Shown one piece after another: positions 840-64,000 of a stretch of 64,000 nucleotides of DNA. Positions within the stretch are counted from its first letter, which is position 1; every line of letters begins with the position of its first letter. The notes below the pieces were generated by a model. That model had not been told where the DNA came from. It made no database searches and worked only from the letters and a program-made list of their open reading frames with translations. Location: assembly GCF_041435055.1 (NCBI RefSeq), contig NZ_CP108002.1, positions 1,674,001-1,738,000 of the forward strand, in the 5' to 3' direction. The position numbers and the translations under genes were made by a program. This DNA comes from Streptomyces sp. NBC_00341 (GTDB lineage: Bacteria; Actinomycetota; Actinomycetes; Streptomycetales; Streptomycetaceae).

Positions 840-2141
840 TCAACCTTTCCATACGGGCTCCGCGAGCCCGAGGTGCGACCGGAGTGTGGAACCGGTGTAC
901 GCCGAGCGGAAGACCCCGCGTTCCTGGAGGAGCGGGACGACCCGGTCGACGAAGTCGTCGAGTCCGCCCGGGGTGAGATTCGGTACGAGGATGAAGCCGT
1001 CGGCCGCTCCGGCGGCGACGAATTCGGCCAGCTCCGCCGCGACGGTCCCGGGGCTGCCGACGAACGACTGCCGGGTGGTCGCCTCGATGACCGTCTGCCG
1101 GATGGAGAGCCCCTTCTGCCGGGACAGGGCGCGCCAGCGGGCCGCGACGGCGAGCGGGTCACCGAGGCGCACCCGGCCCTGGACCAGCTCCGAATCGGGG
1201 ACCGGATCGGCCTCGGGGAGCGGCCCGTCCGGGTCGTAGGAGGAGAGGTCCCGGCCCCAGACCTGCTCCAGGGCGAGCATCGCGTTCTGCGGCGAGACCT
1301 GCTGGAGACGGAGTGCGGCGGCCTTCTCCCGCGCTTCGGCGTCGGTGTCCCCGAGCACGAAGCCGACGCCGGGCATGATCTTCAGCTCGTCGGGCTCCCG
1401 GCCGTACTTCGCCAGCCGTCCCTTGACGTCCACGTAGAAGGCGCGGCCCGCCTCCAGGGTGCCGTGCCGGGTGAAGATGACGTCGGCGGCGGAGGCGGCG
1501 AACTCGCGGCCCTCGGCGGAGTCACCGGCCTGGATGACCACAGGATGGCCCTGCGGGCAGCGCGGCAGGGTGAACTCGCCCTCGACGGAGAAGTGCTCGC
1601 CGTGGTGGGCGAAGGGGCGCGGGGTGCCGTCCGGGGTCCAGGAGTCCCACAGCTCGCGGGCGGTGGCGACGAACTCGGCGGCCCGGGTGTATCTCGCGGC
1701 CCGGTCCAGGTAGCCGCCCCGGCGGAAGTTCTCCCCGGTGAAGGCGTCGGACGAGGTGACGACGTTCCACCCGGCCCGGCCTTCGCTGAGGTGGTCGAGG
1801 GTGGCGAGCCTGCGGGCCAGCTCGAAGGGCTCGTTGAAGGTGGCGTTGACGGTGGCGGCGAGGCCGAGCCGGTCCGTGACGGCGGCCAGCGCGTTCAGCA
1901 CGGTGAGGGACTCGGGGCGGCCGACCACGTCCAGGTCGTGGATCAGCCCGTTGTGCTCGCGCAGCCGCAGGCCCTCGGCGAGGAAGAAGAAGTCGAACAG
2001 GCCGCGTTCCGCCGTGCGCGCCAGATGTTCGAAGGAGGAGAAGTCGATCTGGCTGCCGGAGCGGGGGTCCGCCCAGACGGTGGTGTTGTTCACCCCCGGG
2101 AAGTGTGCGGCGAGGTGCAGCTGTTTCGGTGCGGTCGTCAT
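840..2141 (-). CDS. NtaA/DmoA-family FMN-dependent monooxygenase
   Basis: A 433-aa class C flavin-dependent monooxygenase of the NtaA/SnaA/DszA/DmoA branch of the bacterial luciferase superfamily. Such enzymes use FMNH2 from a separate reductase and O2 to oxidise small heteroatom compounds: sulfides, aminopolycarboxylates and sulfones. Visible family features are the N-terminal LHLAAHFPGVNNTTVWADP, the FFFLAEGLRLRE strand, the GRAGWNVVTS motif and the late VIQAGDSAEGREFAA flavin-phosphate loop. The ATG at 2139-2141 overlaps the upstream monooxygenase stop by 4 bp, indicating translational coupling. The substrate cannot be read from sequence. Its place in an operon with an amino-acid-type transporter under a Cys-type leader favours a sulfur compound. 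Confidence 0.88.
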   Translation of the reverse strand: MTTAPKQLHLAAHFPGVNNTTVWADPRSGSQIDFSSFEHLARTAERGLFDFFFLAEGLRLREHNGLIHDLDVVGRPESLTVLNALAAVTDRLGLAATVNATFNEPFELARRLATLDHLSEGRAGWNVVTSSDAFTGENFRRGGYLDRAARYTRAAEFVATARELWDSWTPDGTPRPFAHHGEHFSVEGEFTLPRCPQGHPVVIQAGDSAEGREFAASAADVIFTRHGTLEAGRAFYVDVKGRLAKYGREPDELKIMPGVGFVLGDTDAEAREKAAALRLQQVSPQNAMLALEQVWGRDLSSYDPDGPLPEADPVPDSELVQGRVRLGDPLAVAARWRALSRQKGLSIRQTVIEATTRQSFVGSPGTVAAELAEFVAAGAADGFILVPNLTPGGLDDFVDRVVPLLQERGVFRSAYTGSTLRSHLGLAEPVWKG

Positions 2142-3217
2142 GCCCGTTCTCCTCGAAGGACGTGGTCCCGGGCGTACCGGTTGGCCGGGCGGGCCAGGCC
2201 CAGGTGCTCGCGGAGGGTTCCGCCGGGGTGGAAGGTGCGGAAGAGGCTGCGGTGCTGGAGCAGGGCAACCGTGCCGTTGACGATCCGTTCGAGATCGCGG
2301 CCGGGCGTGATCGGGGTGAGGTGGAAGCCGTCCACCGCCCCGGCGCGGTGCCACCGGCCGATCAGATCGGCGAGGTCCACCGGGCCGCCCCGGTAGTACG
2401 TACCGTGCGCGGCGAGCGGCGGACCGCTCGCCAGCCCGGGTTCCGGGGCGGATTCGGCGTCCCCGAGGTCCACGGTGAGCGCGGCGAGCACCCGGAGGGT
2501 GTCGGGGTGGCGGCCGTGGGCCTCGGCGCGGCGGCGCACGTCGTCGCGGATCCTGGCGGTCCGCTCGGGCGTGGTGGCCCGGACGAGGACGACGTCGGCG
2601 TGGCGCGCCGCGGTCTGTCTGGCCGGTTCCGCCGTGCCGTCGATGACGACGACCGGGCGGCCCTGCGGGGGCCTCGGCACGATGGCCGGTCCGCGGACAC
2701 GGAACGTGGCGCCCTCGAAGTCGACGTAGTGCAGCTTGTCCCGGTCGACGAACCGCCCGGTGGCGGTGTCCCTGATCTCGGCGTCGTCCTCCCAGCTGTC
2801 CCAGAGCCGCGCGCCCACGTCCGCCACCTCGCCGGCCTCGCGCCAGAGTTCGGCGGCGGGTGCGGCCGGGCGGCGGCCGAACAGCCGGGCCTCCGCGCCG
2901 GTCGTCGACACGTCCGCCTGCCAGCCCGCCCGGCCCCGGCTCACCCAGTCCAGGGTGGCCACGGCGGACGACACGTGGAACGGCTCGGTGTGGGTGGTGG
3001 TGACCGTCGGCACGAGCCCGATCCGGCGGGTGGCCGGCGCCACCCGGGACAGCACGGCGAGGGCGTCGGGTCCCGGCCGGGCGAACGAGTCGCCGAGGGT
3101 GACGAAGTCGAGGGCGCCCTGCTCCGCGAGCCGGGCCAGGGCGGTGTAGTGCTCCGGCTCGTAACGGGGTGGACCACCGATTTCGGCGGCGAGGTGGAGG
3201 GGGCGGATCGGAGGCAT
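2138..3217 (-). CDS. LLM class flavin-dependent oxidoreductase
   Basis: A 359-aa luciferase-like monooxygenase (TIM barrel, FMN-dependent). Seen are LHLAAEIGG at the N terminus, LDFVTLGDSF, GRAGWQADVSTTGAEARLFG (the family's substrate/flavin loop) and VVIDGTAEPARQTAARHADVV. It is a paralogue of the gene immediately downstream but belongs to the shorter group. It starts at ATG 3215-3217 and its stop overlaps the next start (ATGA). Two such monooxygenases side by side are typical of gene sets that desulfurise or deaminate organosulfur or polyamino acids. Both would need a flavin reductase, and none is encoded in this window next to them. Confidence 0.87.
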   Translation of the reverse strand: MPPIRPLHLAAEIGGPPRYEPEHYTALARLAEQGALDFVTLGDSFARPGPDALAVLSRVAPATRRIGLVPTVTTTHTEPFHVSSAVATLDWVSRGRAGWQADVSTTGAEARLFGRRPAAPAAELWREAGEVADVGARLWDSWEDDAEIRDTATGRFVDRDKLHYVDFEGATFRVRGPAIVPRPPQGRPVVVIDGTAEPARQTAARHADVVLVRATTPERTARIRDDVRRRAEAHGRHPDTLRVLAALTVDLGDAESAPEPGLASGPPLAAHGTYYRGGPVDLADLIGRWHRAGAVDGFHLTPITPGRDLERIVNGTVALLQHRSLFRTFHPGGTLREHLGLARPANRYARDHVLRGERA

Positions 3218-3288: not shown

Positions 3289-4110
3289 TCACAGGACCTT
3301 GGAGAGGAAGGCGCGGGTGCGCTCGTGCCGGGGGCGGTCGAGCACCTCGGCGGGCGGGCCCTGTTCGACGATGCGTCCCTCGTCCATGAAGACCACGGTG
3401 TCGGCGGCCTCGCGCGCGAACCCGATCTCGTGGGTGACGACGATCATCGTGGTGCCCCGGTCCGCCAGGTCCTTGATGACGTCGAGGACCTCACCGACCA
3501 GTTCGGGGTCGAGCGCGGAGGTGGGTTCGTCGAAGAGCAGCAGCTTCGGTTCCAGGGCGAGCGCGCGGGCGATGGCGACGCGCTGCTGCTGGCCGCCGGA
3601 GAGCTGCCGGGGGTAGGCGTGCGCCTTGTCGGCCAGGCCGACCCGGTCCAGGAGTTCGTGCGCGGTGGCGGCGGCCCGCTCCTTGGGGCGGCCGAGCGCG
3701 GCGACCGGGGCCTCCGTGATGTTCTCCAGGACCGTGAGGTGCGGGAAGAGGTGGAAGTTCTGGAAGACGAAGCCGATCCGGGTGCGGCGGCGCAGCACCT
3801 CGCGCTCGGGGAGTTCGTACAGCTTGTCGCCCTTGCGGCGGTAGCCGACGTAGTCGCCGTCCACGGTGATCGAGCCGCGGTCCGCCTTCTCCAGGTGGTT
3901 GACGGTGCGCAGCAGGGTGGACTTCCCGGAGCCGGAGGGGCCGAGGATCACGGTCACCTCGCCGGGGCGCACGGACAGGTCGATTCCGCGGAGCACGTGC
4001 AGGGCGCCGAAGCTCTTGTGTACGCCCCGGATCTCCACCATGGCCTCGGCCTGTCCCCGGTCGCGGTCGGCGGCCGGTTCGGTCTTCGGTGGGCGGCTGG
4101 TCGTCGTCAT
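3289..4110 (-). CDS. amino-acid-type ABC transporter ATP-binding protein
   Basis: A 273-aa ATPase of the polar amino acid uptake (GlnQ/TcyC-like) family. Walker A GPSGSGKST is at about residues 57-65, followed by the Q-loop FVFQNFHLFPHLTVLENIT, the signature LSGGQQQRVAIARAL, Walker B LLLFDEPTSALD and the switch histidine VVTHE. The start was set at ATG 4108-4110 (MTTTSRPPK) because an AGAGGAA ribosome site sits just upstream; an earlier in-frame ATG at 4158 lacks one. With the permease at 6001-6867 and the divergent lipoprotein at 7433-8374 it makes a complete importer. Cystine or another sulfur-containing amino acid is the most likely class of substrate, by context. Confidence 0.93.
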   Translation of the reverse strand: MTTTSRPPKTEPAADRDRGQAEAMVEIRGVHKSFGALHVLRGIDLSVRPGEVTVILGPSGSGKSTLLRTVNHLEKADRGSITVDGDYVGYRRKGDKLYELPEREVLRRRTRIGFVFQNFHLFPHLTVLENITEAPVAALGRPKERAAATAHELLDRVGLADKAHAYPRQLSGGQQQRVAIARALALEPKLLLFDEPTSALDPELVGEVLDVIKDLADRGTTMIVVTHEIGFAREAADTVVFMDEGRIVEQGPPAEVLDRPRHERTRAFLSKVL

Positions 4111-4162: not shown

Positions 4163-6004
4163 TCAGCCGTCGCTGCCGGTGAGTTCGCGCAGGAGGGTGA
4201 GGGCGGCGCGCGCGGTGGCGTCGTTCTGCCGGAAGGCCGGGCCGCCGGTGCGCGGCCGGGTGAACGCGCCGCTGGTGCGGGCGGCGGTGTGCGGGCCGAG
4301 TGCGAAGCGGCGCGGGTGCGGGAGGCCTTCGCGGTCCAGGATCCGGCCGTCGTCGGGGTCGACGGCGAGCAGTCCGGTGGCGGTGGCGGCGGCCCCGTCC
4401 CGGTGCAGGGTGCGCAGCAGGGTGGAGCGGGTGCGTTCCGGCGCGGGGTCGGGCAGCCGGGCCTCGACGAGCGCGCGGGCCTCGATCCGTTCGCCGGGCA
4501 CGGTGGCGCTGCCGGCCCGGAAGACGCCGTGCCGTTCGTCGGTCTCGACGGTGATCCCGGCGCCGAGGAAGCGGACGACGCCGGCCCGGGAGAGCGCCAG
4601 CAGCTGCCGCAGCCGGGGGCCGGGCGGACCGGAGGCGAGGTAGCTGAAGAAGCCGTGCCACCAGTCCCCGATGTCGCCGAACCGGATCAGCTGGCCGTAG
4701 GCGGAGAGCAGTCCGAGGAAGACCGCGAGGTCCTCGCTGTGCCCGGGGTCGTGCCGGCGGTCGAGGTCGGCGGCGATGTGGTCGCGGGTCGCCTCCTGGA
4801 GGGCGTCGTACGAGGGGTGCCGTACGCCGTCCAGCGGGCGGTCGAGTGCCTGGATGTCGAGCCGGTCGGCCGGGTCGGGGACGGCGGCGGCGATCAGGGC
4901 CCGCAGGTCGTCGCTGCCCGGCTCCGCGACCGCGTACTTCTCCTCGAAGGCGGTCCGGTCCGAGGTGGTGCGTTCGGCGTGGGCGGTGAAGAGCCGGTGG
5001 TAGTGGGCGAACCCGAGCTCTTTGTCGATATGTGGCCAGATATCGCGGTGGAAGTCGGGCGGCTCCGTCCGGCCGAGCAGCTCCTCGGTGCGCTCGGGGC
5101 CGAGGAACCGGGGCAGCGGTGGCCGTTCGCCCTGCCAGCCGTATCCGATCTTGGAGCGGTACGGGACGCCGCGCCGCGATCCGACGTACAGGACGGGCTC
5201 CCGGCCCGACGGCAGGTAGGCGCCGTTCTCGTACCGTCCGCCGCGGCCCTCCGTGAGCAGCACCATGAGGTCGATGAAGGCGAGTCCGAAGCCCCGGACG
5301 ATGACGGGTTCGCCCGCGGGCAGAGCGGTGAGGTCGCTGTCGGCGGTGAAGTCGGGCGGCAGATGGACGAGGCCGTGCCGGCCGGCGAAGGCGGAGAGGG
5401 CCTGCTGTCCGGCGTCCGGTTCGGCGTCCAGGTGGCCGATGGTCAGGACCACCAGGTCCGCGAGCAGCGGTTCGGCGCGGCCCTCCAGCCGGACGCGCTG
5501 GGGTCCGTCGGGCGGACCGGTGACGTCCAGCGCCCGGTCCCGGTGTTCGTGGACGGTGACCGAGGGCGGGAGGGCCGCCACGGACTGCTCGTACACCCAG
5601 CGCAGATAGGCGCCCTGGAGCCGCCGGCTCGGGAAGTCCTGCCCCCGCAGCGCCTCGATCTCGGCGCGGAGTCCGGGCTCGGCCGCGTCGTCGGATGGCT
5701 GGATCCGGCCCTCGCGCACGTCCACCGCCCAGGCGTCCAGCGCCGGCCCCGGTCTTATGGGCCCGTCCTGGCGGACGGTCTCGTCGGTGAACATGGTGAC
5801 GTCCTCGGCCATGGAGTTCATCCACAGCAGCGGCGACTGGTCGTGGCGCCAGATCCGCCCGGCGCCGGGCGGGTACGGGTCGACGAGGTGCAGGTCCAGC
5901 GGCCGGTGCCCGTACAGCTCCGGGGCGTTGGCTGCGAGGCGCTCGATCAGGCCGGTGCCGCGCGGTCCGGCGCCTATGACGACCAGCGAGGGGCGGCCGT
6001 TCAC
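4163..6004 (-). CDS. FAD/NAD(P)-binding protein
   Basis: A 613-aa protein that opens with a Rossmann dinucleotide motif (VVIGAGPRGTGLIERL, residues about 8-23) followed by DPYPPGAGRIWRHDQSP. This resembles the FAD-NAD(P)-binding group of flavoproteins related to N-hydroxylating monooxygenases and HI0933-like proteins. Further blocks are VVLTIGHLDAEP, VIVRGFGLAFIDLMVLLTEGRGGRYE and a C-terminal LGPHTAARTSGAFTRPRTGGPAFRQND. The start is GTG at 6002-6004, overlapping the permease stop (GTGA). It lies between the permease and ATPase genes, an arrangement that ties it to the imported substrate. It may supply redox chemistry for the two monooxygenases, but no reaction can be assigned. Confidence 0.85.
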   Translation of the reverse strand: MNGRPSLVVIGAGPRGTGLIERLAANAPELYGHRPLDLHLVDPYPPGAGRIWRHDQSPLLWMNSMAEDVTMFTDETVRQDGPIRPGPALDAWAVDVREGRIQPSDDAAEPGLRAEIEALRGQDFPSRRLQGAYLRWVYEQSVAALPPSVTVHEHRDRALDVTGPPDGPQRVRLEGRAEPLLADLVVLTIGHLDAEPDAGQQALSAFAGRHGLVHLPPDFTADSDLTALPAGEPVIVRGFGLAFIDLMVLLTEGRGGRYENGAYLPSGREPVLYVGSRRGVPYRSKIGYGWQGERPPLPRFLGPERTEELLGRTEPPDFHRDIWPHIDKELGFAHYHRLFTAHAERTTSDRTAFEEKYAVAEPGSDDLRALIAAAVPDPADRLDIQALDRPLDGVRHPSYDALQEATRDHIAADLDRRHDPGHSEDLAVFLGLLSAYGQLIRFGDIGDWWHGFFSYLASGPPGPRLRQLLALSRAGVVRFLGAGITVETDERHGVFRAGSATVPGERIEARALVEARLPDPAPERTRSTLLRTLHRDGAAATATGLLAVDPDDGRILDREGLPHPRRFALGPHTAARTSGAFTRPRTGGPAFRQNDATARAALTLLRELTGSDG

Positions 6005-6867
6005 CGGGGGTCCGCCGAGCCGCGGGCGTAGTGCCGTTCGACGTAGTGCTGGCCGACGCTGAGCACCGAGGTCACCACGACGTACCAGAGGGTGGCGACC
6101 AGCAGCAGCGGGATGACCTGGTAGGTGCGGTGGTAGACGAGCTGGACGGAGTACAGCAGGTCCTGCACGGCGATGATGCTGACGATCGAGGTGCCCTTGA
6201 GCGTGCCGATCAGCATGTTCCCGGCGGGCGGCACGATGGAGCGCATCGCCTGGGGCAGCACGATCCGGCGCAGCCGCCGCCACGGACCGAGGCCCAGCGA
6301 CTGGGCGGCCTCCAGCTGTCCGCGTTCCACCGAGAGGATGCCGCCGCGTACGACCTCCGCCGCGTAGGCGGCCTCGTGGAGCGTCAGTCCGATGACGGCG
6401 ACGGTGACGGGGCCGAGGAGGTTCACCGTGCGGACGCCGAGGATCTCCGGGTAGAGGGCGCCGATGTTGAACCAGAACAGCAGCTGGACCAGGATCGGGG
6501 TGGACCTGAAGAGCCAGACGTATCCCCAGCCGACGGCCTGGAGAACGCGGTTGGCGGAGAGCCTCAGGACGGCGAGCAGGGTGCCGAGCGCGAAGCCGAG
6601 CACCATGACGAGCGCGGTGAGCCAGAGGGTGAGCCAGAGACCGCGCAGCACGGCGGTGGTCAGGAAGTAGTCGCCCACGACGTCCCACTGGAAGGCGTCG
6701 TTGCGGATGACCGAGTTCAGCGCGAGGGCCAGCAGGACGAGTACGGCGACGGCGGCGGTCCACTGACCGGTCCGGCGGGCCGGGACGATGCGCAGCCGGT
6801 CGGCGGCGTCGTCCTTGAGCGGTGGGGCCGGGCGGGCCGGCGGGAGGGTGTCTGTCTGTGCGGACAT
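6001..6867 (-). CDS. amino acid ABC transporter permease
   Basis: A 288-aa membrane permease of the His/Glu/Gln/Arg/opine (HisM/TcyB) family. Hydrophobic segments start at about residue 35. The region ALGFALGTLLAVLRLSANRVLQ and the EAA-loop-like EAAYAAEVVRGGILSVERGQLEAAQSLGL are diagnostic of the family. The start was set at ATG 6865-6867 (MSAQTDTLPP). It is the first gene of the leftward operon. Upstream lie a TTGACA box at 7031-7036 and three 15-bp direct repeats (6918-6962). One permease gene suffices for a homodimeric transporter of this family. Confidence 0.92.
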   Translation of the reverse strand: MSAQTDTLPPARPAPPLKDDAADRLRIVPARRTGQWTAAVAVLVLLALALNSVIRNDAFQWDVVGDYFLTTAVLRGLWLTLWLTALVMVLGFALGTLLAVLRLSANRVLQAVGWGYVWLFRSTPILVQLLFWFNIGALYPEILGVRTVNLLGPVTVAVIGLTLHEAAYAAEVVRGGILSVERGQLEAAQSLGLGPWRRLRRIVLPQAMRSIVPPAGNMLIGTLKGTSIVSIIAVQDLLYSVQLVYHRTYQVIPLLLVATLWYVVVTSVLSVGQHYVERHYARGSADPR

Positions 6868-6917
6868 GCGAGGGCTCCGTGGATGCGGTGATCGAACACG
6901 GGGCGTGCCCTCGGCAC

Positions 6918-6962
6918 GGAAACACGACAGCTGGAAACACAGCAGCCGGGAACGCGACAGCT
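6918..6962. repeat. three tandem 15-bp repeats in the permease 5' leader
   Basis: Three contiguous imperfect copies of a 15-bp unit: GGAAACACGACAGCT (6918-6932), GGAAACACAGCAGCC (6933-6947) and GGGAACGCGACAGCT (6948-6962). They lie between the putative leftward promoter and the permease start, so within its 5' untranslated region if the promoter call is right. They could be iteron-like binding sites or an RNA element; no regulator is known from sequence alone. Confidence 0.6.
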
Positions 6963-7006
6963 CGCGCAACGATACGGACCGGGCCCCTCAGCGCGATCCG
7001 CCTCCG

Positions 7007-7036
7007 AGGTAAGCGCTGTTCACAACGGGATGTCAA
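7007..7036 (-). promoter_or_regulatory. putative leftward promoter of the sulfur operon
   Basis: On the minus strand a perfect TTGACA -35 hexamer (7031-7036) is followed after 18 nt by TTACCT (7007-7012), a partial match to the vegetative -10. It would start transcription of the permease operon near position 7000. It lies back to back with the rightward promoter at 7073-7101. Confidence 0.45.
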
Positions 7037-7072
7037 GCCTGTCCACACTGTGAGCCGTACACACAGGGCCAG

Positions 7073-7101
7073 TTGACGGACTACCGGATGCCTGTTCCAC
7101 T
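7073..7101 (+). promoter_or_regulatory. putative rightward promoter of leader peptide and lipoprotein
   Basis: TTGACG (7073-7078) is followed after 17 nt by TCCACT (7096-7101), a weak -10. This spacing puts the transcription start at or within a base or two of the leader-peptide ATG (7108). No ribosome site precedes that ATG, so a leaderless leader peptide is plausible. Confidence 0.4.
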
Positions 7102-7107
7102 TGGGCC

Positions 7108-7179
7108 ATGCATTCGCAGAAATGGCTGGTCAAGCGCTCCCACATCGACTTCGGTCGCGTGTGGTCCTGTTCCTGTTGA
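7108..7179 (+). CDS. cysteine-type leader peptide (attenuation)
   Basis: A 23-codon open frame, ATG 7108 to TGA 7177-7179, encoding a peptide that begins MHSQKWLVKR and ends SHIDFGRVWSCSC. The 'R-x-HID-xx-RV-x-S-x-x-C' pattern matches the small leader peptides found in Streptomyces and other actinobacteria upstream of sulfur assimilation and transport genes. The two Cys codons placed immediately before the stop are what an attenuator sensing charged tRNA-Cys needs. It lies 253 nt upstream of the substrate-binding lipoprotein gene. Hairpins follow at 7209-7224 and 7361-7385. The peptide family call is good; the control mechanism is inference. Confidence 0.82.
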   Translation: MHSQKWLVKRSHIDFGRVWSCSC

Positions 7180-7208
7180 GCTGACCCCGCTGCGTTCCCG
7201 CCCTTCTC

Positions 7209-7224
7209 GCGCCGTGAGCGGCGC
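7209..7224 (+). promoter_or_regulatory. stem-loop in the leader downstream of the leader peptide
   Basis: GCGCCG (7209-7214), loop TGAG, CGGCGC (7219-7224): a perfect 6-bp GC stem about 30 nt after the leader-peptide stop. It is a candidate component of the attenuator; no U-tract follows it directly. Confidence 0.35.
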
Positions 7225-7360
7225 CTGAGCCTTTCCCTCTGTGTGCCCTCGTGCACGCGACAGCGCTCCACCCTCCCCTCGTCACCACACCGTGCCCCGC
7301 GACGCCGCGGCACGTCTTCCTCCGTCCCGGCCGCGGACTGCCTCGTGCTGCCCCGGTGCG

Positions 7361-7385
7361 GTGACCGGCAGAGCCTGCCGGTCAC
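7361..7385 (+). promoter_or_regulatory. stem-loop upstream of the lipoprotein start
   Basis: GTGACCGGCAG (7361-7371), loop AGC, CTGCCGGTCAC (7375-7385): a perfect 11-bp stem ending 47 nt before the lipoprotein ATG. It could be the termination or anti-termination arm of a Cys attenuator or simply stabilise the leader. Confidence 0.45.
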
Positions 7386-7432
7386 GACACCCGCATCCGT
7401 CCTCGGCCGCCGAAAACTGGAGACCTTCCCTG

Positions 7433-8374
7433 ATGCCCCGTACCCGGCACACCGCTGCCTTCGCGCTGATCACCGCGGCCATGCTGGCTCTCACCGCGTG
7501 CGGTTCCGGCGATCCGGCGACCGCCCCCGCCGGCGCGGCCGGTCCGGCCGCGGAGCACGCGATCCCCACGGCCGACGTCGTGTCGGGGGTGAAGCGGAAC
7601 AAGGCCGCGGCCGACCTGCTGCCGGCCGCCGTCCGCTCCTCCGGGACCCTGAACGTCGCCTCCAGCGTCGGAACCCCGCCCGGAGCCACCTATCTGGCCG
7701 ACGGCAAGACCCTGGCCGGCACCGACATCGACTTCGCGGACGCCGTCGCCAGGGTGCTCGGCCTGAAGCCGAAGCGGGAGGTCGCCGCGTTCGAGGCGAT
7801 CCTGCCCGCGCTCGGCAGCGGGAAGTACGACGTGGGCACCGGAAACTTCGGGGTCACCGACGAGCGCCGGAAGACGATCGACTTCGTCACCTACCTCAAC
7901 GACGGCCAGGGCTTCGCGGTCCGCGACGACAGCAAGCTGGCCAAGGTCACCGATCTGACCCAGCTCTGCGGTCTGACGGTGGGCACCGCCGCGGGCACCA
8001 CGTTCGAGGTGACGCTGGAGGAGAACAAGCACCGGTGCGCCGACGCCGGCAAGAAGCCGTACGACGTGAAGACGTACTCGGACCTGGCCGCGGTCTGGAG
8101 CTCGCTCCAGCAGGGGCGGACCGACATCGTGATGTCGACCATCAACGGGCTTCGGTACGCGGTGAAGCAGCAGGAGGGTGTCCGCTTCCTCAACGAGTTC
8201 GCGCGTCTCGACGTCGGCTTCGCGTTCAAGAAGGGCACTCCGCTGGCGCCCGCGTTCCAGGCCGCGGTCAGCGCCCTCAAGGCGGACGGCACCTACGACC
8301 GGATCCTGAAGAAGTGGGGCATCGACGAGTCGGCGATCGAGACCTCGCAGATCTCGCCGCCCGAGATCAGCTGA
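7433..8374 (+). CDS. amino-acid-type ABC transporter substrate-binding lipoprotein
   Basis: A 313-aa extracellular solute-binding protein of family 3. The N terminus is a lipoprotein signal: Arg/His-rich start, hydrophobic core and lipobox LTAC with Cys23, followed by GSG. The mature part shows the family pattern: GTLNVASSVGTPPGATY, AGTDIDFADAVARVLGLK, KYDVGTGNFGVTDERRKTIDFVTY and a C-terminal AVSALKADGTYDRILKKWGI. The start is ATG 7433 (MPRTRHTAAF) with GGAGA upstream. It diverges from the permease/ATPase operon and is preceded by a Cys leader peptide. It presumably captures a sulfur-containing amino acid or related compound for the importer; the exact ligand is unknown. Confidence 0.92.
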   Translation: MPRTRHTAAFALITAAMLALTACGSGDPATAPAGAAGPAAEHAIPTADVVSGVKRNKAAADLLPAAVRSSGTLNVASSVGTPPGATYLADGKTLAGTDIDFADAVARVLGLKPKREVAAFEAILPALGSGKYDVGTGNFGVTDERRKTIDFVTYLNDGQGFAVRDDSKLAKVTDLTQLCGLTVGTAAGTTFEVTLEENKHRCADAGKKPYDVKTYSDLAAVWSSLQQGRTDIVMSTINGLRYAVKQQEGVRFLNEFARLDVGFAFKKGTPLAPAFQAAVSALKADGTYDRILKKWGIDESAIETSQISPPEIS

Positions 8375-8434: not shown

Positions 8435-9712
8435 TCAGCAGCTGCAGTCACACCCGCAGTCGCAGCAGTCGCACCCGTCACAGCAGTCGCCGCAGTTGCT
8501 GCAGCAGTCGCAGCCGTCGCAGCAGTCACCGCAATCGCAGTCGTTGCACAGCCCCTCGCGGCGCTGCCGGGTCCACGGATCGTCGAAGGTGCCGCAGCAC
8601 ATCTGGCAGGTGCAGGCGAGCCCGGCCCACACCAGGCACCCCACGACGAGCCCACGGCGGTCGCGCGGCGGCTCCGGCGGCGGCTGCGGCGGGCCGAAGG
8701 GTGCGCCGGGGCCGGAGGGCGCGTACGGGTTGCCCGGCGGCGGTCCGAACGACGCCGTGTGAAGGGTTCCTGACGGGTGATCGGCTGACGGGCGGCCGGC
8801 TCCGTCCGGGCCGGCGGGTCCCGCGGTCAGCAGGCCGCCCGACCGATGGGAACAGACGTCCGTGGCGAAGGCCCGGTCCACCGAGCGCCGCAGTTCGTGC
8901 GCCAGCAGCACGTGGGCCAGCTTGCCGTCGGTGAACTCCGCGTCGCGCAGCGCCAGCCGTACGCCGCGCAGCGCGTCGTCGCACAGCCGGCGGGCCTCGG
9001 CGCGCGAGGTGCCGGTCGCGGTGAGCGGGTTCCAGGCACCCGACGCGGCGTCAGCTTCCTGGTCCTCCACGGCATCCAGCAGATGTGCGAGGCGCCCGAA
9101 GAGGCGCCCGGCCTCGGCCAGCGGCTCGGCGTTCCCCGGCTTGCCCGCGAGTACGGCGGTGTGCGCGAAGGCCGCCGCGGTGGCCGTCTCGGTGGGCTCC
9201 GTGACCGTCAGCAGCGGGGTGCCGGGGCCCGCGAGCAGCTCGATGCCGGTCTGCCGGTCGACGGCGTCGACGAGCAACGCCGTGTCGAAGCCGAGCTGTG
9301 CGCCGGTCCGCGCGCCGGCGCGGTCCCAGCCCGCCGCCACCCTGCGCGCCGCCGCCGCCACCGGGCGCCGCTTCAACAGCCCGTCCCGGTCCGCGACGTG
9401 GTCGCGCACCTTGGCCGACGCCAGCACCAGCGAGACGGCGGCCGCCAGCCTGGCCCCCTCGCCCCGCGCGACCGGGGCGGTCCGCATGGCGCGCAGCGGG
9501 CAGGGGCCCGCCGTGCGGCGCTGTGCGGGGGTGCGTTCGGTCTGAGCCTCCGTCAGGACCGAGACGATCAGGCCGTCATAGTTCGTGACGATCCGAGCGA
9601 ACTGTCCGTGATCGGACCGAAGTGCCAGACAGAGCCCGCAGAGATGGGCCATCCACTCGGCCCTGAGCCCGTCCGACAGTCGGTGGACGCAGGGCCTGAC
9701 TATTCCGAACAC
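8435..9712 (-). CDS. DUF5685 family protein with Cys-rich tail
   Basis: A 425-aa protein beginning MFGIVRPCVHRL, the conserved opening of the DUF5685 family, followed by WMAHLCGLCLALRSDHGQ and many conserved Cys and His. The start is GTG at 9710-9712; in-frame codons further upstream lack family similarity. Residues about 330-375 are Pro/Gly-rich, then GLVVGCLVWAGLACTCQMCC forms a short hydrophobic Cys-rich segment. The last roughly 38 residues hold about 18 cysteines in Asp/Gly/Cys repeats and end CDCGCDCSC. Function is unknown. The tail looks metallothionein-like or like a cluster/zinc-binding appendage. It converges with the lipoprotein gene. Confidence 0.82.
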   Translation of the reverse strand: MFGIVRPCVHRLSDGLRAEWMAHLCGLCLALRSDHGQFARIVTNYDGLIVSVLTEAQTERTPAQRRTAGPCPLRAMRTAPVARGEGARLAAAVSLVLASAKVRDHVADRDGLLKRRPVAAAARRVAAGWDRAGARTGAQLGFDTALLVDAVDRQTGIELLAGPGTPLLTVTEPTETATAAAFAHTAVLAGKPGNAEPLAEAGRLFGRLAHLLDAVEDQEADAASGAWNPLTATGTSRAEARRLCDDALRGVRLALRDAEFTDGKLAHVLLAHELRRSVDRAFATDVCSHRSGGLLTAGPAGPDGAGRPSADHPSGTLHTASFGPPPGNPYAPSGPGAPFGPPQPPPEPPRDRRGLVVGCLVWAGLACTCQMCCGTFDDPWTRQRREGLCNDCDCGDCCDGCDCCSNCGDCCDGCDCCDCGCDCSC

Positions 9713-10019
9713 GACGATCCCCCGGGTGTCGTTCAGCTGTGCGCCGCGCTCGGGCGAGGGCGCGCCGTGCATCGTACCGAGCGCCCCGTTCACCCGTACG
9801 TCCCCCATGTCACCCGTACGGCCCGGAGCATCATATTTTCTTTCTTCAGGGCCCTTAAGCAGGAGGAACCTTGACGAATCGCCACATCCTCTGCACCAGT
9901 ACCGTCACGAATGGCCTGCGCGCCGCCTATCCCCTTGGCGCACGATCCGCATCATGGACGACCATAGGGATACGAAAGAGATGCGGAACGCCAAGGAACC
10001 GCGGTGAGAGGAGGCGTCC
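9713..10019. other. intergenic region upstream of the SflA-like gene
   Basis: A 307-bp divergent intergenic region between the DUF5685 and SepF-like genes. It has an AT-rich patch at about 9830-9850 and a strong GAGAGGAGG ribosome site (about 10003-10013) for the SepF-like gene. No RNA gene is recognised. A TTG-initiated frame at 9871 was considered and not accepted. Confidence 0.5.
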
Positions 10020-62510: not shown

Positions 62511-62629
62511 GTTCGGCGGCGTCCTACTCTCCCACAGGGTCCCCCCTGCAGTACCATCGGCGCTGAAAGGCTTAGCTTCCGGGTTCGGAATGTAACCGGG
62601 CGTTTCCCTAACGCAATGACCACCGAAAC
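62511..62629 (-). rRNA. rrf: 5S ribosomal RNA
   Basis: Read on the minus strand it begins GTTTCGGTGGTCATTGCG and ends GTAGGACGCCGCCGAAC, the standard Streptomyces 5S sequence, about 119 nt. The ends pair (5'-GTTTCGG with CCGAAC-3'). It follows the 23S gene after a spacer of about 110 bp and precedes the terminator. Confidence 0.95.
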
Positions 62630-62737
62630 CCTATCGGGTTCTAGCGAACAAGCACACTTTTCAATTAAGTAGTGAAGCTGTTCAACCGGTGCGATAACTG
62701 TTCGCAACCCGGGAACAACACAGTGGACGCGAGCAAC

Positions 62738-64000
<1,263 letters not shown>

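Follow-up and report, generated by a model that had tools for sequence, protein, structure and literature searches.

A conserved leader frame with an invariant UGU codon as a candidate cysteine-responsive leader peptide upstream of an amino-acid-binding lipoprotein gene in Streptomyces

The leader frame and its surroundings

Within the window (the whole 64,000-nt stretch of Streptomyces sp. NBC_00341 DNA analyzed here), a solute-binding lipoprotein gene is preceded on its own strand by a frame of 23 codons, and diverges from a minus-strand operon for a permease, an FAD-NAD(P)-binding protein, an ATPase, and a monooxygenase. The features on which the argument draws are given below, with counts referring to the 80 lipoprotein loci compared.

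2138–3217, minus strand: luciferase-like FMN monooxygenase of NtaA/DmoA type (match below cut-off), 34/80 loci
3289–4110, minus strand: ABC ATPase, 71/80 loci, some of them partial
4163–6004, minus strand: FAD-NAD(P)-binding protein (PF13454), exact start uncertain, 79/80 loci
6001–6867, minus strand: divergent ABC permease of polar amino acid type, on the minus strand in 80/80 loci
7031–7036, minus strand: TTGACA, probable −35 box of the divergent permease operon
7073–7078, plus strand: TTGACG, −35 box starting 35 nt 5′ of the leader ATG
7096–7101, plus strand: TCCACT, −10-like hexamer read from the sequence, 17-nt spacer, 6 nt before the ATG
7108–7179, plus strand: 23-codon leader peptide reading MHSQKWLVKRSHIDFGRVWSCSC, stop TGA
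7174–7176, plus strand: TGT (Cys), codon 23 and proposed sensor codon, directly 5′ of the stop
7433–8374, plus strand: family-3 solute-binding lipoprotein of an amino-acid ABC transporter, 313 aa (PF00497, E 4e-26)

The leader frame ends 253 nt 5′ of the lipoprotein ATG at 7433, the length that the initial annotation had given for this stretch, and the gene has a Shine-Dalgarno sequence, GGAG, at 7419–7422. Of 180 lipoprotein relatives found, the best 80 loci were used, and in 79 of these the leader lies upstream of the gene, on the same strand and within 2500 nt (76/80 in a stricter first scan limited to 1200 nt); with the window, these make 80 leader rows. In Kutzneria (L080), the lipoprotein gene is present and two scans did not find the leader. 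In 75 of the 80 rows, the peptide ends S-[SAC]-S-C with TGA following at once, and across these rows H, I, D, G, R, V, W, S, and the last C are invariant; in four others (L013, L048, L070, and L072), the frame continues beyond the Cys, and in L008, the Cys is gone through a frame change. Conservation starts ~77 nt 5′ of the ATG, spans the frame, and is gone ~20 nt past the stop. The comparison thus presents a real, strongly conserved, and translated-looking frame, as first proposed, its reality being borne out further by a match to the NCBIfam model NF042936 (E 5e-6, below). The two Cys codons originally noted before the stop fare differently: the last, codon 23, is conserved, whereas the position two codons before it holds Cys in only 16 of the 75 rows (window included), with Ser in 51 and Ala in 8.

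The first T of the TTGACG box is present in 75/75 rows and the other letters of TTGAC are in place in ~87% of the 75. The −10-like hexamer, which begins 12 nt 5′ of the ATG, is weak, and a strict sigma-70 consensus scan found no promoter at the leader. The 65 distinct paralogous leaders that have an ATG show TANNNT 23 times in the upstream 60 nt, with 17 at −12/−13; TTGAC is present upstream 28 times, and 22 of these lie at −35 to −38. From this spacing, we infer that the transcript would start at the leader ATG itself (7108), leaving no 5′ leader; this promoter geometry fits the original suggestion of leaderless translation, which comparison supports as probable, with TTGACG 35 nt upstream in the window and similar spacing in the paralogues. 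The minus-strand TTGACA falls in a conserved stretch at −77 to −72 relative to the leader ATG, such that 7031–7078 holds two −35 boxes facing away from one another with a conserved stretch in between, which may be the site of a shared regulator. For the divergent permease operon, a both-strand motif scan over 1200 nt in search of a second leader gave plus-strand frames only.

Models that name a ligand for the transporter parts are below cut-off throughout and mutually inconsistent. For the binding protein, none of the 17 NCBIfam matches reaches cut-off; the top one is to a kinase model that includes a fused binding domain (134 of 900 bits), with lysine/arginine/ornithine at 112 of 256 bits and cystine at 95 of 312, and the nearest solved chains are glutamine-type. 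The permease matches EhuC (ectoine; 158 of 197 bits) and a cystine model (155 of 300), both below cut-off, and the best NCBIfam match of the ATPase is L-cystine TcyN (318 of 406 bits, below cut-off). The leader and the monooxygenase suggest a sulfur amino acid as the possible substrate, and a sulfur-type role of the lipoprotein gene is plausible. Convergent to the lipoprotein gene lies a DUF5685 protein (8435–9808, minus strand) that contains 29 Cys, of which many belong to a tail of the CDCGDCCDGCDCC type; its relatives sit on the minus strand near the lipoprotein gene in 63/80 loci. At the far end of the window, 62511–64000 (minus strand) holds 5S and partial 23S ribosomal RNA genes.

Related leaders and their cysteine codon

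The nearest model to the window peptide is NF042936 (“Ms4527A family Cys-rich leader peptide”), matched at 26 bits, E 5e-6, under its 45-bit cut-off. NF042934 (“cis_reg_atten”, the Streptomyces type, cut-off 27 bits) did not report the window peptide up to E 10, and the peptide is not among the 20 matches of that model in its own genome. It has the same motif and spacing, and differs in that Phe replaces Leu and Trp follows the motif Val. Nearest model, core motif, spacing, and conservation support the proposed kinship with actinobacterial cysteine leader peptides; of the traits of this kind of short conserved frame, motif, spacing, and conservation are observed here, and a sulfur role of this gene is presumed. 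NF042934 itself matches all 31 sampled Streptomyces genomes at E ≤0.01, the matches numbering 4 to 16 per genome; at E 0.01, the 14 control genomes gave no match (permissive own-genome searches, at E up to 10, also matched 9 and 10 of the 14 controls, below cut-off). In a phylum-wide sample, 9/119 genomes match at E 0.001; the family is therefore far from universal in the phylum.

The window's own genome contains eleven further leaders with the Cys. Downstream of these lie a cysteine synthase (TIGR01136, over cut-off), a sulfite/nitrite reductase (PF01077, which leaves open which of the two), metY (O-acetylhomoserine/O-acetylserine sulfhydrylase; NF005872, over cut-off), an SsuC-like permease, a sulfurtransferase, an NtaA/DmoA-like monooxygenase, a sodium:dicarboxylate-type symporter, a family-5 binding protein, a flavin reductase, a cysteine dioxygenase (PF05995), and a ROK-type regulator. 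In a set of 93 leaders, 68 have a relative of one of those genes downstream and 25 do not, and leaders before the same gene mostly have near-identical motifs. Cysteine dioxygenase follows 19 of the 93 (L095, L131, L139, and L140 among them; named by Pfam in L095, and in the others by similarity to the L095 gene), and all 19 of these leaders carry R-Y-A-G-C-x-C, as does a twentieth with no dioxygenase match. A leader before a cysteine-degrading enzyme does not fit a plain rule by which starvation turns the gene on: oxidizing cysteine while it is short would serve little purpose, which leaves either a reversed sign before this gene or a signal other than simple shortage.

In the family of the window peptide, the last codon is TGT in 75/75 rows ending S-x-S-C (window included) and the Cys codon is also TGT in the four rows that continue past it; counted by position, the Cys 11 residues past the motif His is TGT in 78/78 orthologues of the window peptide with Cys there. 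Cys in the lipoprotein genes is TGC 230/230, and in eight window genes TGC 38 times and TGT 4. The Streptomyces paralogues keep the distance from motif His to Cys constant at 11 residues, and that Cys is TGT in 91/91 leaders (93 read, two having Ser there), which comprise 48 different 12-residue motifs; the other Cys codons in these frames, counted from the match start, are TGC 84 and TGT 11 (84/95 TGC). The Fisher p of 4e-41 for this difference (first 91 leaders) is only descriptive because the rows are related. A larger set, sampled among the matches listed (60 fetched besides the loci already given), gives TGT in 113/113 Streptomyces leaders with Cys there (116 read). The remaining three are L195 and L198, with Ser at the Cys position, and L099 (G000:C1:8464689-8464733), a leader-like frame that ends HIDLLRVSSAY and stops just 5′ of the Cys position, for which reason it was excluded from the 93.

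The same codon recurs outside Streptomyces. In the mycobacterial-type family (whose genomes we take to be mycobacterial, the Ms4527A model being over cut-off in 8/31), 22 of the 24 leaders read have Cys there, 21 of them as TGT, with other Cys codons TGT 24 and TGC 31; of seven further non-Streptomyces leaders with Cys there, six have TGT and one (L208) TGC. The window's genome has two tRNA-Cys genes among 67 tRNA matches, both with anticodon GCA, and UGU would therefore be read by wobble. A fixed UGU, where other Cys codons of the Streptomyces leaders are mostly UGC, argues for a single sensor codon and not a tally of cysteines.

How the leader may sense and switch

Our preferred reading, to which we give a probability of roughly three in four on comparative evidence, is that the frame at 7108–7179 encodes a leaderless, cysteine-responsive leader peptide controlling the downstream amino-acid-binding lipoprotein gene, the ligand of which is possibly cystine or another sulfur amino acid. 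Transcription would begin at the leader ATG, and the ribosome translating the frame would meet UGU at codon 23, readable only by tRNA-Cys(GCA) through wobble, with the nascent H-I-D-F-G-R-V-W-S-x-S by then in the upper exit tunnel and probably aiding the pause. When Cys-tRNA is scarce, the ribosome would stay parked on UGU-UGA and roughly the first dozen nt past the stop; with Cys-tRNA in ample supply, it would terminate and depart. The parked ribosome would keep the downstream gene on, most likely by blocking Rho (or a weak hairpin terminator) from the naked C-rich leader, with Shine-Dalgarno masking as the alternative switch. The sensing half of the proposal is well supported by comparison, including cysteine as the sensed amino acid, as had been suggested; the charging of tRNA-Cys would be what is read, and the switching half is a guess. 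Counting against the proposal, a single Cys codon would by classical logic be a weak counter of starvation.

The region between leader and gene holds the following features.

7180–7194, plus strand: conserved box past the stop, GCTGACCCC-CTGCG
7180–7432, plus strand: C-rich, G-poor leader–gene region, possible Rho loading region
7206–7229, plus strand: bulged GC hairpin, CTC-GCGCCG-TGAG-CGGCGC-CT-GAG
7361–7385, plus strand: perfect hairpin of the initial annotation, 11 bp with a 3-nt loop, not conserved

Because the Cys codon adjoins the stop, stalled and terminating ribosomes would cover nearly the same RNA and differ in dwell time, which favors a kinetic competition, for example with Rho loading, more than a mechanism built on two alternative folds. 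The first 130 nt past the stop have a C/G ratio of 1.9, reached by 0.6% of 130-nt segments of the window on both strands; across 64 rows, the same interval has C 0.48, G 0.23, and a median C/G of 2.19 (vs 1.03 in the coding region), with a median of 2.05 in 100 nt of leader RNA and 1.77 in the paralogues (39 tested), which are likewise C-rich. C-rich, G-poor RNA past the frame, as in Rho-dependent control of the tnaC type, is thus present, a feature that is necessary and not sufficient for such control. An intrinsic terminator was rejected, no terminator-like site being found in 6850–7450, nor the hairpin with U run of a classical attenuator.

Past the stop, GAGC(Y)GAY is found at the stop in 63/80 rows, displaced in 5, and not found in 12. 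Of the two hairpins first described in this stretch, the one at 7209–7224 exists and forms part of the bulged hairpin at 7206–7229, which has counterparts in relatives: post-stop hairpins of ≥7 pairs (one 2-nt bulge allowed, within 70 nt) occur in 28/80 rows against 3.8 expected, and of ≥9 pairs in 12 rows against 0.6, although 52/80 rows lack a hairpin of at least 7 pairs, and in a 16-row alignment, one of five pairs is changed on both sides. The other, at 7361–7385, exists but was rejected as a conserved element, since the closest relative (L001) retains only 7 bp of it and L002 has no perfect hairpin of ≥7 bp in that gap. A strong post-stop fold in the paralogues was likewise rejected, there being only a small effect over the first 50 nt (mean z −0.48) and ~0 beyond. 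The gap between leader and gene exceeds 450 nt in 16 loci, and in the four of these examined (L017, L028, L030, and L079), an acetyltransferase-like gene (called by eye, without a model) lies between the two. With conservation fading ~20 nt past the stop and the gap varying in length, no fixed switching structure is seen.

Two other readings also involve the leader peptide. The first is an arrest peptide, in which nascent H-x-D-x-x-R...S-x-x-C would stall the ribosome on cysteine or a related metabolite rather than on Cys-tRNA charging; in its favor are the His–Cys spacing fixed over those 48 motifs, where the other codons vary between motif types and UGU is constant, and the cysteine dioxygenase leaders, which would suit a signal of plenty. 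A purely peptide sensor nevertheless leaves the UGU requirement unexplained, and the extra Cys codons often carried by mycobacterial-type leaders are a better fit to charging; we hold this reading to be unlikely, though not negligible. Of similarly low probability is translation attenuation, by which leader RNA would mask the lipoprotein ribosome-binding site and a stalled ribosome would free it. Attenuation of this type is reported for cysteine leaders of M. smegmatis (PMC9031893, PMC13236596), and in predicted folds, the Shine-Dalgarno stretch is mostly paired (mean 0.85, 30 rows). Its predicted partner, however, is not the frame end: masking by that element was rejected, with a mean pairing of 0.055 among the 30 of 64 rows with a Shine-Dalgarno site (>0.3 in 3/30, and 0.0 in the window). 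Single-sequence folds had also offered a pairing between the post-stop box and the frame's first half, which was rejected as standing at the level of dinucleotide shuffles (mean z −0.12, with 2/80 rows below z −2), and the long gaps, with a gene intervening in the four examined, argue further against such a switch.

The frame also contains a potential RNA structure.

7140–7164, plus strand: in-frame RNA hairpin, 6 bp + 4 bp, UUCG loop, one-base bulge at 7158

This hairpin, CCACAU-CGAC-UUCG-GUCG-N-GUGUGG, encodes the leader motif, and its bulge is the third base of Arg codon 17. Throughout the His-to-Val codons, every paired position is fixed in 80/80 rows, synonymous variation being confined to the bulge (C 40, A 25, T 12, and G 3); GGT, on which one pair depends, occurs in 80/80 rows, as opposed to 180/2490 Gly codons in the lipoprotein genes. 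In 7/8 tested, the predicted fold is more stable than that of synonymous recodings, at z −2.2 to −2.6, and in the eighth it is so by 1.3 s.d. Consensus folding of the frame detects almost no covariation because the stem never varies, and what argues for the putative hairpin is the conservation of synonymous sites. As a family-wide feature, it was rejected, none of 93 paralogues having z below −2. That the frame is kept mainly as DNA or RNA (operator, hairpin), with translation incidental, would accord with this invariant stem, its fixed synonymous sites, and the conserved block reaching 77 nt upstream, but is very improbable given paralogues that have the peptide and no hairpin, and frame lengths that differ in 3-nt steps (22- and 23-codon forms).

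Comparison with known systems and wider meaning

Mycobacterial polycysteine leaderless short ORFs, reportedly described by Canestrari et al. in 2020, and the NF042936 Ms4527A family resemble the window peptide in the core R-x-H-[IV]-D-x-x-R-V, and the polycysteine leaders have the leaderless position and downstream sulfur genes that we propose for the window leader; Ms4527A-model leaders also have the UGU 11 residues past the His, in the proportion given above. The window leader differs in having one conserved Cys, as its last codon, instead of a Cys run, and in the putative hairpin inside the frame. E. coli TnaC, encoded by tnaC, is likewise a short peptide with fixed residues at fixed spacing, and has the stall at the stop and the Rho-dependent control proposed here; unlike the reading preferred here, it senses tryptophan plenty and turns on degradation.

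In the available part of PMC1262725, which names tnaC, cysteine leader peptides are predicted in Mycobacterium, Propionibacterium, and Bifidobacterium, and polypyrimidine (Rho-like) stretches are proposed, with Rho-type control for the mycobacterial cys leaders; the predicted leaders are short frames with Cys near the stop and no terminator, as in the window, but have runs of Cys codons, and Streptomyces is not among the cys cases in that part. Several leaderless leader peptides are described in S. lividans TK24, likewise a Streptomyces (PMC8079986), and the eight leaders assigned in the part available (Leu, Trp, Ala, Ile, Met, and Thr) include none for Cys. The metL leader before metNIQ is read there as Met-dependent and ends ARCMCRRMCAF, a tail with three Cys beside two Met. 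The Rhodobacterales cysS leader uORFC-8-2 similarly senses Cys codons in a short upstream frame, but uses an intrinsic terminator and tandem Cys codons that are mostly UGC and some UGU (PMC8632094). For synonymous codon choice deciding a starvation response, as proposed here, the B. subtilis sinR serine codon sensor offers a parallel (PMC3862929), although that sensor lies within a regulator gene and involves no leader peptide.

The rule that the Cys 11 residues past the motif His is UGU appears, from these comparisons, to be new here. UGU, TGT, UGC, and TGC are absent from the main texts of PMC4633059, PMC1262725, and PMC9094748, and in PMC13236596, UGU occurs only within an author name; the literature searched, a scope outside which the 2020 mycobacterial leader paper falls, has no mention of a codon rule, and that paper may contain it.

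We tentatively extend the proposal, at somewhat less than even odds, to leaders across Actinobacteria as one type of sensor, with a single critical UGU 11 residues past H-[IVM]-D-[LF]-x-R and both peptide and codon needed. If so, the peptide would slow or hold the ribosome and the wobble-read UGU would tie that hold to Cys-tRNA, with the polycysteine runs of mycobacteria as embellishments around that UGU. The loose description of cysteine-rich leader peptides would then become a precise claim, namely that a single synonymous change of UGU to UGC should weaken or break the sensor, and in at least two actinobacterial groups, leader peptides would sense through codon identity, beyond amino-acid identity. 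In each Streptomyces genome, uptake, assimilation, and also cysteine oxidation, the last through a distinct R-Y-A-G-C-x-C peptide, would be divided among operons that are each sensed separately (4 to 16 model matches per genome in the 31 sampled). The sensed set would extend to transporters and cysteine dioxygenase in soil bacteria for which, as producers of antibiotics, sulfur supply is important.
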